Source of the DNA: Roseibacillus ishigakijimensis
GTDB taxonomy: Bacteria > Verrucomicrobiota > Verrucomicrobiia > Verrucomicrobiales > Akkermansiaceae
Assembly: GCF_016595415.1 (NCBI RefSeq)
Contig: NZ_JAENIO010000003.1
Coordinates: 62,001-126,000 of the forward strand
Length of the DNA: 64,000 nucleotides
Direction of reading: 5' to 3'
Part shown: positions 4,410 to 52,668 of the stretch, one piece after another
Layout of the letters: every line of letters begins with the position of its first letter
Position numbering within the stretch: the stretch's first letter is position 1
Translations under genes and position numbers: made by a program
Notes under the pieces: generated by a model
Told to the model about the DNA's origin: nothing
Database searches by the model: none
What the model saw: the letters and a program-made list of their open reading frames with translations, nothing else

Positions 4410-4423
4410 GGATGGCAGCACGG

Positions 4424-4440
4424 GGACGAAAAAACCGTCC
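4424..4440 (-). other. Small hairpin in the leader of the FadL-type gene
   Basis: GGACG, a GTTTTTT loop and CGTCC lie 14 bases upstream of the ATG at 4409. A TTGACC element further upstream suggests this gene has a real 5' leader. Function is unknown; it may affect translation. Confidence 0.3.
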
Positions 4441-4496
4441 TGCCAACTTGCCCAGAGCTTCCCGGTGAGGTCAAGACTGCAAGGGGGGATTTTCCC

Positions 4497-4814
4497 TCAT
4501 CCCGCGTAGAAGTGCTGCACGAGAAGGCCGATAGCGGTTAGCAGCCCGAGGAAGGCGTAGAGGGAGGGCCGTTGCTTGAGGGCGCGGCCTCCCGCCGAAA
4601 GCACCCGGGACCAGAGAATGAGGAGGTAAAAGAAAACGACGGTGAAGGCGGCCCCGACGAGGAAAGGCCGCAGCCCGCCATGGGCCAGCCAGTGCACGAA
4701 TTCCAACAGAAGGAAACCACCGCCGAGGAGAATCACCGCGCCCACCAGAATACGGAGAAATGCGTCCAGTTTGGGATCGGGGGGGAGAGGCTGGCTCTCG
4801 TCTTCGTGATACAT
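4497..4814 (-). CDS. Small inner-membrane protein of unknown function
   Basis: A 105-residue protein with a short charged, Pro-rich cytoplasmic N-terminus (MYHEDESQPLPPDP) and three hydrophobic segments, at about residues 22-45, 52-70 and 87-102. No catalytic or ligand motif is visible. ATG start is supported by an unusually clear promoter, TTGCAG-N16-TAAGGT, ending 6 bases before it. The next gene upstream (methyltransferase) reads in the same direction 45 bases away. I do not recognise the family. Confidence 0.72.
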   Translation of the reverse strand: MYHEDESQPLPPDPKLDAFLRILVGAVILLGGGFLLLEFVHWLAHGGLRPFLVGAAFTVVFFYLLILWSRVLSAGGRALKQRPSLYAFLGLLTAIGLLVQHFYAG

Positions 4815-4820
4815 GGCCTC

Positions 4821-4848
4821 ACCTTATCGCCAAAGCGCCCTCCTGCAA
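4821..4848 (-). promoter_or_regulatory. Leaderless promoter of the small membrane protein
   Basis: Minus strand: -35 TTGCAG (4848-4843), 16-bp spacer, -10 TAAGGT (4826-4821), then 6 bases to the ATG at 4814. There is no room for a Shine-Dalgarno sequence. Confidence 0.65.
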
Positions 4849-4859
4849 ATGCGGCTTTT

Positions 4860-5510
4860 TCAGACCAGGATACGGGGCAAGTCCTCTCGGGGCTCTCGTG
4901 AGAAAACGGCGAGATGACGGTCGACGGATTTTCCCGCGGTCTGAAGGACGGGACGGGAGCGGGGATTGCGCACGGTGGTGAGGCGGTGGGCTCCCAGCGA
5001 TTCCAAGGCCGAGAGCGCGAGGAGGTGCTCCTTGTCGAAGTAAGAGGTGATGATGAGGAGTCCGTCTGGGCTGAGCTGGTGGAGCGCGTGGTCGAAGAGT
5101 GTGGTCCACAGCTGGGGACCGTTCCAGAAGTTTTGGTGGCGGAAAAAGGCAAGGTGGGTCGGGCTTGGGATCTCCCGCAATTCAGGCAGCTTGGAGGCAT
5201 CGAGGGTGAGAAAGCGAGCCTGCAGGCGGGAGGATTGCCCCTGCTGGGCGGACCAGCGGGCCGAGGCTTCATCCAGCTCGGCAGCGCGGATGTCGATGCC
5301 GGTGAAGCGGGTCTCGCCCAGAGGATGGGAGAAAAGGTCGGCGAGGAGTCCGGTCTCATCCGATCGGCCGCAAGCGAGGTTAAGAACATGCCGATCGGGC
5401 GGGAGTCCGGGGCTCAGATGGGGCACGGCATGGCTCTGCAGGAGCAGGCGCAGCGAGGCCAGATCCTCGGGAGTTTCGCGGTAGGAAAAAGGGCGGTTCG
5501 GCAGATGCAC
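4860..5510 (-). CDS. SAM-dependent methyltransferase-like protein
   Basis: About 216 residues with a class I methyltransferase fold. The SAM-binding motif I reads VLNLACGRSDETGLL, followed by an acidic strand end (FTGIDIRAAELDEA) and a post-motif strand SPDGLLIITSYF typical of the family. The substrate is unknown. The frame stays open upstream to 5780, but that part is antisense to the divergent kinase gene; the GTG at 5510 (VHLPNRPFSY) is the first start after the intergenic region and gives a sensible N-terminus. Start choice is moderately sure. Confidence 0.7.
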   Translation of the reverse strand: MHLPNRPFSYRETPEDLASLRLLLQSHAVPHLSPGLPPDRHVLNLACGRSDETGLLADLFSHPLGETRFTGIDIRAAELDEASARWSAQQGQSSRLQARFLTLDASKLPELREIPSPTHLAFFRHQNFWNGPQLWTTLFDHALHQLSPDGLLIITSYFDKEHLLALSALESLGAHRLTTVRNPRSRPVLQTAGKSVDRHLAVFSREPREDLPRILV

Positions 5511-5620
5511 GTTGCCGGGAGCTAGACAGGCGGGCCCTCTTTTGGCGAGCCGGAATGTCGCCTGCCTGGTGGGGAACCCCTGGGATTGGCCGCGCTGACT
5601 CAGGGAGACAGTCTTGGGGA

Positions 5621-5650
5621 TTGTCAATTTGGTCAACAAACCCTTAGCCT
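5621..5650 (+). promoter_or_regulatory. Promoter of the NahK-like kinase gene
   Basis: TTGTCA (5621-5626), 18-bp spacer, TAGCCT (5645-5650), then 8 bases to the GTG at 5659. The fit supports the GTG rather than the TTG at 5614 as the start. Confidence 0.55.
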
Positions 5651-5658
5651 GCGCTTTC

Positions 5659-6789
5659 GTGAGTGAAAAGAGACCTATCGAACGGATCGAAGAGATTGCC
5701 AATTTGTTCGCGATCGAGGGCCATTTGATCGAGGCCGAGGAAGTGGAGACTGGTCTCATCAACTCCACCTGGTTGGCCACTTATCAGAATCCGCGTGGGC
5801 AATGCAGCCGCTTCATTTTGCAACGAATCAATGAAACGGTCTTTGGCGATCCGCTGGAGGTGATGCGCAATGTGGAATGCGTGACCCGGCACATCAACGA
5901 AAAGGTCCTGCGGGTGAAAAAAGACTTTGGCGGCCACACCCTCAGTCTCTATCCCGGGCGCAAGGGCTCCAGTTTCGTGAAAGGGCCCCACGGGGGGATT
6001 TGGCGTTGCTACAACTTCATCGAAGGCTGCCGCACCTATGATGTGGTGGAGAACACCCGCCAGGCTTATCAAGCCGGACATGCTTTCGGGGCTTTCCAGG
6101 ATTTGGTGAGCGACCTGTCTCCCCAGGAAATCATCGAGGTGATTCCCGACTTTCACAACACTCCCAAACGCTATGAAAATCTGCTACAGGCCGTGGCGGT
6201 GGATGAGTGCGATCGGGTCCGGGAGGTGCAAGCGGAATTGGCATGGATCGAATCCATGGCTGGCGAGATGGACAAAGTGACCAAATTGGTGGCGGCCGGA
6301 GAACTCCCTGTTCGGGTGACTCACAATGACACCAAGATCAACAATGTGCTTTTCGATATGAATTCCGACGAGGCGATGTGTGTGATCGACCTCGATACCG
6401 TCATGCCGGGGCTCTCTCTCTATGACTTTGGCGATCTGGTGCGCACCTCGACCAATCCGGCGGCGGAGGATGAGCGCGATCTGGAGAAAGTGTGCATGCG
6501 CATGCCCATCTTCGAAGCGTTGGTGGAAGGCTATCTGGAGGCTGTGGGGGAGGAACTCACCCGGCGCGAAATTGAGCTGCTGCCCTTCTCCGGTTGTCTC
6601 ATCTCCCTGGAGCTGGGGATGCGCTTTCTGACCGACTACTTGTCCGGGGACCGCTACTTCCGGGTGAAACGGCCGGGCCAAAATCTCGACCGGGCCCGCA
6701 CCCAGCTGAAGTTGGCTCGCGAAATCGCGGCCGCCGAAGACCGGATGCAGGCCTACGTGGATAAGGTGGCGAGCGCGTTATTCGCCTGA
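5659..6789 (+). CDS. APH-fold sugar 1-kinase, NahK-like
   Basis: A 376-residue kinase of the aminoglycoside phosphotransferase fold, closest in my recognition to N-acetylhexosamine 1-kinase (NahK), which makes HexNAc-1-phosphate in salvage of glycans. Catalytic loop HNDTKINN is at about residues 222-229 and the metal-binding motif IDLDT at about 243-247, followed by the usual YDFGDLVRT. The N-terminus VSEKRPIERIEEIANLF matches where this family begins, so GTG at 5659 was chosen over TTG at 5614, although the TTG has a GGGAG ahead of it. It is a lone plus-strand gene among minus-strand neighbours. No uridylyltransferase or phosphorylase partner is present, so the substrate is inference. Confidence 0.78.
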   Translation: MSEKRPIERIEEIANLFAIEGHLIEAEEVETGLINSTWLATYQNPRGQCSRFILQRINETVFGDPLEVMRNVECVTRHINEKVLRVKKDFGGHTLSLYPGRKGSSFVKGPHGGIWRCYNFIEGCRTYDVVENTRQAYQAGHAFGAFQDLVSDLSPQEIIEVIPDFHNTPKRYENLLQAVAVDECDRVREVQAELAWIESMAGEMDKVTKLVAAGELPVRVTHNDTKINNVLFDMNSDEAMCVIDLDTVMPGLSLYDFGDLVRTSTNPAAEDERDLEKVCMRMPIFEALVEGYLEAVGEELTRREIELLPFSGCLISLELGMRFLTDYLSGDRYFRVKRPGQNLDRARTQLKLAREIAAAEDRMQAYVDKVASALFA

Positions 6790-49826: not shown

Positions 49827-50279
49827 CTATTCGGGATTTTTACTGTCCAGGATGATGGTCACGGGTCCGTCGTTGCAGAGGGAGACGGTCATCATGGCTC
49901 CGAACTCTCCCCGTCCAACCGGTTTTTCCAGAGCGGTGGCGAGAGCGGCGCAGAAGTCCTCGTAGAGAGGTTCCGCGATTTCCGGTCTGGCGGCTTTGAT
50001 GAAGGAGGGGCGGTTGCCCTTCTTGGTGGAGGCGTAGAGGGTAAATTGCGAAACCACGGTGACCTCGCCGGCGCTCTCGCGCACGGATCGGTTCATGCGG
50101 CCCTCTTCGTCCTCGAAGATGCGCATGGCCGCAATCTTGCGCACCAGCCAATCGCGATCGGTGGCGTCGTCGCCTTCCGTGATCCCGAGGAGAATGAGGA
50201 GGCCCGCTCCTTGCTGGGCGAGGACTCGGCCTTCACTTTTGACTTCGGCCTGGCTGACTCGTTGGAGAATGGCTCGCAT
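49827..50279 (-). CDS. dtd: D-aminoacyl-tRNA deacylase
   Basis: A 150-residue DTD that removes D-amino acids wrongly attached to tRNA. Diagnostic: MRAILQRVSQAEV at the start, the SQFTLYASTKKGNRPSF motif and the GPVTIIL cross-subunit Gly-cisPro motif near the C-terminus. ATG at 50279 chosen since MRAILQRV is the family start; a longer in-frame start adds Pro-rich residues. Next to metG, a natural translation-quality neighbour. Confidence 0.94.
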   Translation of the reverse strand: MRAILQRVSQAEVKSEGRVLAQQGAGLLILLGITEGDDATDRDWLVRKIAAMRIFEDEEGRMNRSVRESAGEVTVVSQFTLYASTKKGNRPSFIKAARPEIAEPLYEDFCAALATALEKPVGRGEFGAMMTVSLCNDGPVTIILDSKNPE

Positions 50280-50308: not shown

Positions 50309-51073
50309 TTACCAAGCCCCGATTGCGCCTGCCAGTCCCAGCGCGCTTCCTTCCCCTGCACGCACTTGTTTTTTGCCGATCTCACTGGACGGACAATGGA
50401 GCACGAGGCAGGGAAGCCCGCTCTCCTGAGTGGCCAAGGAGATCAGGCCGGAAAAGGTCTTGGCGCCGGAGGAGTCGACGAATTCCACTGGGAAGGATTG
50501 GCTGCCTCGGGGAAGCTGACGGGGCAGGGCGGTGAGGACCACGAAGTGGCCGTGCACGCTCTGCCAGTGGCCTTGGCGATGGACGAAGCGGCGCACCGAG
50601 AGGATGGGCGGCAGGCCTTTGGCGAGCGATTTGTGGAGCTGCTTGTGGGCGAGGCGGAGCTTTTTCTCGCTGTCCGCTCCCGCTGACGCGAAGTAAAGTT
50701 CCGCCCGCACCTTGGGCAGACCCCATTGCAAGGAGCGGAATTCGTCGGCCATCACCGCCAGGTCGGCAAAGTTGACTCCACTGCGGATTTCCCAGCGAGC
50801 CCGTTGGGGCAGGTTGCTGGAAGGCTTTTGACCAAAGGACTTGATAACGGAAGCGATGCGGGCGCGGTCGTTGTCCCCGGGAATCTTGGCCGCGGCCGCC
50901 TGCCATTTTTCACTGCCGGAGCCAAAGGCGTTGAGGAGAGCGGCCGGGCCGCAGGAGTTGCCGATGCCCTTGTTTTGGTCGACGTAAGGAAATTGGGGGT
51001 GGGGGGCGCGGAAGTCGAGTTGCTGAGCTGCGAGGGGAAGGAGGCAGAGGAGGAGGAGAGCGAGGGTTTTCAA
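50309..51073 (-). CDS. Exported C39-like cysteine peptidase domain protein
   Basis: A 254-residue protein with a signal peptide (MKTLALLLLCLLPLAAQ) and a papain/C39-like fold. C41 in GNSCGPAALLNAFG, H176 in HGHFVVL and D200 in EFVDSSG match a Cys-His-Asp triad. Start is TTG, sharing bases with the TGA stop of the subtilase gene (TTGA), so it is translationally coupled to that secreted protease. Whether it cleaves, or is an inactive binder, is open. It may mature or pair with the subtilase, an inference from coupling. Confidence 0.7.
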   Translation of the reverse strand: MKTLALLLLCLLPLAAQQLDFRAPHPQFPYVDQNKGIGNSCGPAALLNAFGSGSEKWQAAAAKIPGDNDRARIASVIKSFGQKPSSNLPQRARWEIRSGVNFADLAVMADEFRSLQWGLPKVRAELYFASAGADSEKKLRLAHKQLHKSLAKGLPPILSVRRFVHRQGHWQSVHGHFVVLTALPRQLPRGSQSFPVEFVDSSGAKTFSGLISLATQESGLPCLVLHCPSSEIGKKQVRAGEGSALGLAGAIGAW

Positions 51074-52668
51074 GGGTTGCCGGGGTCGAGAACGAATTGA
51101 TTGCTCTTGATATTGTTCTCGCTATCGATCTCTTGCAACGAAGAATCGAGGGTCACGCTGGTGGTGATGCTGAAGGCTTCGCCAGCCTGGGGCAAGGTGG
51201 TGGGAAACTCGAAGACCTGGGTTTCGCCGGGAGCGAGCTGATGCAAGCGTTGGGGCACCTGGGCGTAGGGAGTGGAAATGACCACTTCGCCCCGGGGAAT
51301 AGTGGCCGTGCCCTGATTCTGCACGATGGCCACCACGCTATTTCCATCGTTGGTTTTTACCAGATTGGAGACCGCCGCGACATCGTAGAGTCCGGGAGTG
51401 TTCGAATTCATGGTGCGATCCACAGCCAAGTGGCCCAGACCGTAGAAAGTATCCTGGCCAGGTTCGCCTGCCTCGTTGGCATTTTGCATCATCAAGGCCA
51501 CCGCATTTTCCGCTGACAAATTGAACTCGCTCATCACTGCGGCCACGGTGGCTGCCGGGTAAGGGGCGCTGGCGGAGGTGCCGGTGAAGGCGATGTATTT
51601 GTTGTCACTCCAAGCGGCATAGACTTCCAGCCCTGGAGCGGTGAGATCGATATTCTCACCTGTGTTAGAGAAATCCACCAATTCGCCAGCGGCATCGACG
51701 GCTCCCACCGCTATTACTTCGGGGTAACCGGCGGGAAAGGCTGGCTGTTGGTAGCCTTCGTTACCGGAGGAAGCGATGATGACCGCTCCGTTGGCGTAGG
51801 CATAGGCTACGGCATTGGCAACCAGAGCGCTGTCTCCATAGCTGCCCATGGAAATATTGAGCACCTGGGCTCCTGCATCAACGGCAGCGACGATGCCTTG
51901 GGCGAGGAGGAAGGAGCTGGAGTCACCATTGCTATCGGCGACTCGGACGTCCAGCAGATTCGCAGAGGGGGCGACGCCCGGAGTGGTTCCGTTCTGCCCC
52001 GCGATGAGAGACGCGACCGCCGTGCCGTGGCCGTGCCACTCGGAGGAAGGATCGTCGCCGGGAACGAGGTTGAGATGGCGGATGTTTTCGGGTAAAGCGT
52101 TGTGAGCGAGGATGCCGGTATCGATGATGGCGATGGTCACGCCGCTTCCCCAGCTGGAATTGTCGCTGGTGATGCCCAGCCATTCGAGGGCGTTTCCTCC
52201 GAAGGGAACGGCTCCGGCCTGTACTCCGCCGTCCCCGGGGGGGAGGGGGAGAGTGACGAGGTAATTGTAACCCAATTGGTCTTCGTCCAAGAGGCCATCG
52301 AAATCCGACAAGCGGTCGAAGCCCAGCCAGACCGCGCGGAGGGCGTCGATTTGCCCCAGAAGGCGCAGGTTGCTACCCGAGAGGGAGTTGAGAAAATTGC
52401 GGTAATCTTCTTCGGTGTCGAAGGTGACCAGACGTTCGTTACGACGGGCGAGGCGGGGATCGACCTCGACATCAAGGGCGCTCTTCCGATCGCGTTCCGT
52501 GCGGCGGGCTTCGGGCGAGGTCTGGGTCAGGATGGGAGTGCGCTGGGCGGGCTTTTCCGCTTTTCCTCGCGTTTTCTCAGCCACATCGCTGACGACCAGT
52601 CGACCGACCAGAATGGCGAGGAGGATGAAGGCGGCCATGAGGGCCCATTCCAGCGGTTTGATTTTCAT
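51070..52668 (-). CDS. Subtilisin-like (S8) serine protease with C-terminal CARDB-like domain
   Basis: A 532-residue protease, anchored by one N-terminal helix (about 9-26). After a propeptide-like region the S8 domain has D183 (IIDTGI), H214 (HGHGT), N303 (SSGNEG, oxyanion) and S365 (GTSASAP). The C-terminal 110 residues look like a CARDB beta-sandwich (VVAIVQNQGTATIPRGEVVI, TQVFEFPTTLPQAGE). It acts outside the inner membrane. ATG start. Four-base overlap with the following C39-like gene. Confidence 0.92.
   Translation of the reverse strand: MKIKPLEWALMAAFILLAILVGRLVVSDVAEKTRGKAEKPAQRTPILTQTSPEARRTERDRKSALDVEVDPRLARRNERLVTFDTEEDYRNFLNSLSGSNLRLLGQIDALRAVWLGFDRLSDFDGLLDEDQLGYNYLVTLPLPPGDGGVQAGAVPFGGNALEWLGITSDNSSWGSGVTIAIIDTGILAHNALPENIRHLNLVPGDDPSSEWHGHGTAVASLIAGQNGTTPGVAPSANLLDVRVADSNGDSSSFLLAQGIVAAVDAGAQVLNISMGSYGDSALVANAVAYAYANGAVIIASSGNEGYQQPAFPAGYPEVIAVGAVDAAGELVDFSNTGENIDLTAPGLEVYAAWSDNKYIAFTGTSASAPYPAATVAAVMSEFNLSAENAVALMMQNANEAGEPGQDTFYGLGHLAVDRTMNSNTPGLYDVAAVSNLVKTNDGNSVVAIVQNQGTATIPRGEVVISTPYAQVPQRLHQLAPGETQVFEFPTTLPQAGEAFSITTSVTLDSSLQEIDSENNIKSNQFVLDPGNP

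Follow-up and report, generated by a model that had tools for sequence, protein, structure and literature searches.

The overlapping genes for a subtilase and a papain-fold cysteine peptidase in the window (the whole stretch of 64,000 nucleotides analysed here, from a 4.14 Mb assembly of Roseibacillus ishigakijimensis) are a real, conserved unit of the Akkermansiaceae, though not an obligatory one. Both peptidases are probably extracytoplasmic, their signal peptides and starts being predicted, and we give about an even chance to the reading that the two genes form a unit of co-produced envelope proteases with shared extracytoplasmic substrates. The unit is small, with two enzymes, cultured relatives and, in one genus, a candidate substrate family.

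Table 1. Features of the protease gene pair and the adjoining downstream gene (window coordinates; residue numbers refer to the respective protein).
Feature	Position	Strand	Basis
Subtilase (S8) precursor, 532 aa, ATG start	51070..52668	-	Peptidase_S8 E 7e-44; model pLDDT 89.9
N-terminal membrane helix, predicted, residues 5-34	52567..52656	-	Model helix; hydrophobic peak
Prodomain, pro-subtilisin-like, residues about 76-149	52222..52443	-	Alignment to 3whi
Catalytic domain, residues about 150-424; D183, H214, S365, oxyanion N303	51397..52221	-	Pfam, alignment, model
C-terminal beta sandwich, marginally CARDB, residues about 430-526	51091..51381	-	PF07705; model strands
Overlap of four bases, TTGA: TTG start of cysteine peptidase and TGA stop of subtilase	51070..51073	-	
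C39-like papain-fold cysteine peptidase, 254 aa; Q33, C41, H176, D200	50309..51073	-	Model, alignment
Signal-peptide-like N-terminus, about residues 1-17, by eye	51023..51073	-	Model helix 2-15; hydrophobicity
D-aminoacyl-tRNA deacylase (dtd), next gene downstream	49827..50279	-	PF02580

Both reading frames and their shared TTGA, described in an earlier note made from this DNA, were confirmed at the positions in Table 1; the overlap is real, although the note's wording that it forces coupled translation goes too far, coupling being a deduction. Reading by eye found no obvious Shine-Dalgarno sequence before the TTG of the cysteine peptidase, which is consistent with translational coupling while falling short of proof, and from the sequence the two genes are probably translated in this way. 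Among 20 paired loci inspected at base level, 6 (L031, L032, L035, L040, L045, L046) have GTGA or ATGA in place of the TTGA, and in 57 of the 60 named paired loci, where starts are predicted, a candidate start codon for the downstream frame comes no later than the last base of the subtilase frame; together these argue that the overlap exceeds chance. In 53 of those 60 the start closest to the expected place overlaps the subtilase.

Conservation of the pairing was assessed across 195 family genomes, an even sample of a larger group, with subtilase matches accepted at E up to 1e-10. The cysteine peptidase occurs in 105 of these genomes and the subtilase in 135, with the subtilase directly upstream, on the same strand and in the same order, in at least 73 of the 105 peptidase-bearing genomes, spanning nine genera. 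Among the matches listed, the remaining 32 comprise 19 with both genes apart and 13 without a subtilase match; they include all sampled peptidase-bearing members of g10 (11), g11 (7), g12 (10, with both genes apart or the subtilase missing), g14 (1) and g4 (1), plus one genome each of g9 and g13, and no genome of g3 is among the listed matches to either gene in this survey. Both genes occur together in 92 genomes, the peptidase by itself in 13, the subtilase by itself in 43 and neither in 47 (Fisher p 1.5e-9, uncorrected for kinship; relatedness inflates all counts). Sixty of 72 named loci are paired, in a single gene order, these loci coming partly from the same assemblies as the survey and so not forming an independent sample.

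On an unrooted tree of 82 cysteine peptidase rows (71 from alignment A3 and 11 from alignment A1) the pairing state changes 5 times, against 18.1 in shuffles, and pairing is thus clustered. The unrooted subtilase tree (39 rows) intermixes paired and lone members, with 7 changes, of which starred branches force 6 or more, where shuffles give 13.4, and among 97 subtilase sequences no alignment column cleanly divides paired from lone copies.

Beyond the family, a pattern scan of 84,980 species genomes returned 72 loci, all with titles of the Verrucomicrobiota lineage save one titled only ‘Bacterium’. The peptidase was found in 100 of 288 genomes of an order-level sample, including family f62 and one f64 genome, in 22 of 286 at class level and in 10 of 288 at phylum level, the class and phylum copies being from the Akkermansiaceae in all but one case. 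Spread on plasmids was considered and rejected, the cysteine peptidase being without a match in 72,556 plasmid records. No subtilase profile match lies near 20 further peptidase loci (17 of f62, 1 of f64 and 2 second copies in the pair's own family, some on short stretches). The earlier note had made its proposal depend on the pair being kept in relatives, and the outcome is divided: the genes are adjacent in most peptidase-bearing family genomes and named loci, and are separate elsewhere. In f62 a release-factor gene often precedes that of the peptidase (its cluster being present in 9 of the 20 loci), with a tRNA methyltransferase gene (7 loci) or a marginally PilN-like cluster (6 loci) alongside, the PilN likeness being that of the one scanned member (L175, 23.5 bits against a cut-off of 22.8). 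The PilN-like cluster is accompanied by conserved genes of unknown function in 6 of the 17 f62 loci (L165, L170, L175, L176, L181, L182).

The earlier description of the upstream product as a serine protease with all catalytic residues holds in every sequence compared: the Asp-His-Ser triad (D183, H214, S365) and the oxyanion N303 do not vary among 97 subtilases, 78 of them paired and 19 lone, kept from 101 after L034, L089, L109 and L126 were left out; a second subtilase alignment (A4) holds 43 of 58 extracted named subtilases. Pfam Peptidase_S8 matches at 150.7 bits, above its cut-off of 21.8, whereas the CARDB match (PF07705) is marginal (22.9 bits against 22.7) and the best NCBIfam model, mycosin, scores 177.8 bits, under its cut-off of 278.75. 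The predicted structure places the helix at residues 5-34, followed by a low-confidence stretch (36-68), a small domain that starts at 76 and, at the C-terminus, a beta sandwich, and an N-terminal hydrophobic peak recurs in 94 of the 97 sequences. From residue 76 the model aligns with unprocessed pro-subtilisin E (3whi) over 330 residues at Z 43.4 and rmsd 2.2, an alignment of a predicted structure that spans prodomain and catalytic domain jointly, and it also resembles the lantibiotic leader peptidase EpiP (Z 39.4). By analogy with subtilisins, we infer that the catalytic domain begins near Q150. A Gly-Ala pair occupies the prodomain junction (residues 152-153), the Gly being present in 65 of 78 paired and 11 of 19 lone subtilases and the Ala in 53 and 14 of these, respectively. 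In L089 (~4419-6016) a lone subtilase is split across two frames that overlap, which may reflect gene decay or an error in sequencing. Membership of a defence system was considered and discarded, PADLOC giving a generic subtilase match (83.8 bits) and weak IetS matches for the subtilase and none for the cysteine peptidase, and the five window neighbours scanned with Pfam being housekeeping genes.

The downstream product had been described as a secreted cysteine-peptidase fold with Cys-His-Asp, and this agrees with its confidently predicted papain-like model (pLDDT 94.5), with residue conservation and with probable export, itself a prediction. Q33, C41 and H176 are present in 71 of 71 aligned copies, and residue 200 is an Asp in 66 of them and a Glu in the other 5; loss of Cys-His-Asp in orthologues, which the earlier note had named as counting against it, was not found in these 71 copies apart from this Asp-to-Glu exchange. 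Gln, Cys, His and Asp are taken as the putative catalytic residues. The five Glu-bearing copies (L113, L119, L126, L129, L137), which are related, otherwise keep the motif. Alignment A3 covers 70 of the 72 named loci, excluding L098 (open at its end) and L159 (interrupted), and A1 covers 28 loci picked by hand from 40 that were fetched.

By sequence, the window's cysteine peptidase matches nothing in Pfam, NCBIfam, PADLOC or PDB, whereas weak matches to Peptidase_C39_2 (E no higher than 1, 2e-4 at best) come from 16 of the 71 family members and matches to Peptidase_C70 from 6; a profile search of PDB chain sequences from the peptidase family likewise returned nothing at E up to 10. The pair thus points to a divergent peptidase family whose window copy Pfam misses; the nearest named copies are from Roseibacillus (65 and 59% identity). 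In structural comparison, staphopain C is the best Foldseek match (E 8e-4), and VIA ranks the staphopains at Z 13.6 (rmsd 3.8 over 168 residues, 8% identity), ahead of a three-way tie between phytochelatin synthase (12.2), the PCAT1 peptidase portion (12.1) and a C39-like peptidase (11.9). In 74 of 82 sequences the N-terminus is more hydrophobic than the remainder of the chain, and a crude lipobox pattern in 5 of 71 N-termini suggests that a few copies may be lipoproteins. Q33 follows the presumed signal by ~15 residues in a protein of 254 aa in all; with the hydrophobic N-terminus almost abutting the catalytic core, no propeptide region fits.

The genes around the pair are conserved in part. 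Five neighbours in the window are housekeeping genes by Pfam, and across the 72 named loci dtd closely follows the pair in 3, all close relatives, a metG-like neighbour occurs in 1 and ligA in 0, from which the window's other neighbours are judged not to be kept and dtd probably lies outside the two-gene unit. A conserved third partner was sought and none recurs family-wide, the commonest flanks among 20 paired loci being a squalene/phytoene synthase-like cluster (c2, 7 loci) and a Cys/Met-metabolism enzyme-like cluster (c3, 5 loci), while pseudopilin-like neighbours occur in certain genera only. The small cluster c28, lying upstream, may be an open frame read in the wrong frame. Three lone-subtilase loci of g16 (L071-L073) share the gene order c3, subtilase, c2, c4 with the paired locus L045 and carry an enolase-superfamily gene (c26) on the opposite strand where L045 has the cysteine peptidase; in g16 the subtilase occurs in at least 14 genomes and the peptidase in G027 only, paired there (L040). 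The shared order, the presence of c26 in its place and the restriction of the peptidase to G027 suggest in-place loss of the peptidase in g16, starting from an ancestral pair.

In the reading given an even chance above, the subtilase would be inserted in the membrane through its N-terminal helix, fold with its pro-subtilisin-type prodomain and, as in subtilisins, cleave itself just before about Q150, freeing the catalytic domain and CARDB-like region from the anchor. The cysteine peptidase would be exported by its signal-like N-terminus with no need for propeptide removal, and both enzymes would act on shared substrates, successively or with complementary specificities, neither activating the other. 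Adjacency in at least 73 of 105 genomes, co-occurrence, clustered pairing, catalytic conservation, the prodomain alignment and the lack of a peptidase propeptide support such a joint unit; it is weakened by the loss of adjacency in several genera, by the occurrence of either gene alone and by the intermixing of lone and paired subtilases. Part of the stability of the pair may be plain synteny, since the unrelated flanks c2 and c3 also recur.

An activation cascade like that of sspAB, with the subtilase switching on the cysteine peptidase through limited proteolysis, or with release or maturation of the subtilase by the cysteine peptidase, would account for the order of a serine and then a cysteine protease gene, for the staphopains being the nearest solved folds and for the Gly-Ala pair at the prodomain junction, yet it is unlikely. 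Staphopains carry a long propeptide (346 residues in the prostaphopain chain 1x9y, 173 in mature chains), and the 254-residue peptidase has no region of that size, on which ground zymogen activation by propeptide removal was rejected as the leading interpretation. That the cysteine peptidase cuts the subtilase at Gly-Ala is disfavoured in turn, as lone subtilases have the Gly and Ala too and the site looks like an ordinary prodomain junction; moreover, the next gene is dtd and no inhibitor gene was recognised. The earlier suggestion that one protease processes the other is therefore unsupported, the peptidase lacking a propeptide and the subtilase having a prodomain of its own. If instead the two were independent degradative envelope proteases, sharing an operon for no reason beyond dosage or common induction, for instance to obtain nutrient peptides, then the occurrence of each gene without the other (13 and 43 of 195 genomes) and the sister-family peptidase copies with no subtilase nearby would follow readily; the lasting overlap and single gene order exceed what shared induction needs, even though c2 and c3 are also partly kept, and this arrangement is quite improbable.

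Two further alternatives assign the pair to large pseudopilin-like surface proteins. A protein of ~1160 aa with a prepilin-like N-terminus, together with a small secreted-looking protein, lies upstream of the pair in 8 of the 60 named paired loci, and in 3 of these (L044, L128, L132) a further copy of the module lies downstream, so that both sides of the pair are occupied. Of the 73 survey pairs, at least 15 have a pseudopilin-like neighbour, no more than about 1.2 kb away in the cases listed; 13 of these are among the 17 in genus g7 (one being G113) and 2 are in g13. One of three scanned copies matches TIGR02600 (Verru_Chthon_A) over its N-terminus only, at 28.1 bits against a cut-off of 332.3, and the other two match GspK at 20 and 26.4 bits against 130; a search of open-licence PMC literature, which says little about what is in print, found no Verru_Chthon papers. 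That the pair is a maturation module for such proteins agrees with their flanking it in g7 and some nearby lineages and with the same module preceding the lone subtilases of g11 (L077, L079), but the ~1160-aa family is large, occurring in 186 of 195 genomes, some of which have many additional candidates, it also turns up where there is no pair, and at the window locus and in most genera no such gene stands beside the pair; we consider this role quite unlikely. A more specific version, in which a Verrucomicrobiota surface-assembly system has the pair as its dedicated protease module, with giant pseudopilin-like proteins cut in turn by a subtilase that releases itself and a papain-fold peptidase restricted to the lineage, is very unlikely. 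The PilN-like cluster beside the f62 peptidase gene points in its direction, and if true it would provide the first biochemical role for the pseudopilin-like family. The pseudopilin-like neighbours in one genus are in any case the best lead to a substrate.

Two known systems are comparable with the pair, and the statement in the earlier note that no system of this kind has been described was too strong; both are analogues of the window pair. The sspABC operon of Staphylococcus aureus (PMC4490255) is a serine-then-cysteine protease operon, and PMC6811363 sets out an activation cascade from Aur to V8 to staphopain B. As in the window, a serine protease gene is followed by a papain-fold cysteine protease gene and both products are exported (here by prediction). 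The serine protease there is V8 and here a subtilase, however; the staphopain has a long propeptide and the window peptidase none; an inhibitor gene follows in sspABC, whereas dtd comes next in the window and no gene constantly follows the pair across the family; and overlapping reading frames and a Verrucomicrobiota host further set the pair apart. The staphopain likeness is a match of fold, with no sequence match to a PDB chain at E up to 10; the resemblance to sspABC lies in gene order and fold, and its activation step is disfavoured here.

The free-standing C39-like peptidase 3erv has a fold like that of the window copy (Z 11.9, rmsd 3.4 over 161 residues). The protease domain of LicT is also of the C39 kind and LicT includes an ABC-transporter domain, whereas the window peptidase carries no ABC-transporter fusion, being free-standing with a signal-like N-terminus. 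According to PMC10006061, LicT and the subtilisin-like LicP cut one substrate in turn, LicT at a double-Gly motif and LicP outside the cell, indicating that two such proteases can act successively on a single substrate; no lanthipeptide gene came to notice incidentally in the present analysis. With sspABC belonging to a Firmicute, the Akkermansiaceae pair would extend the pattern of serine/cysteine protease operons to the Verrucomicrobiota.
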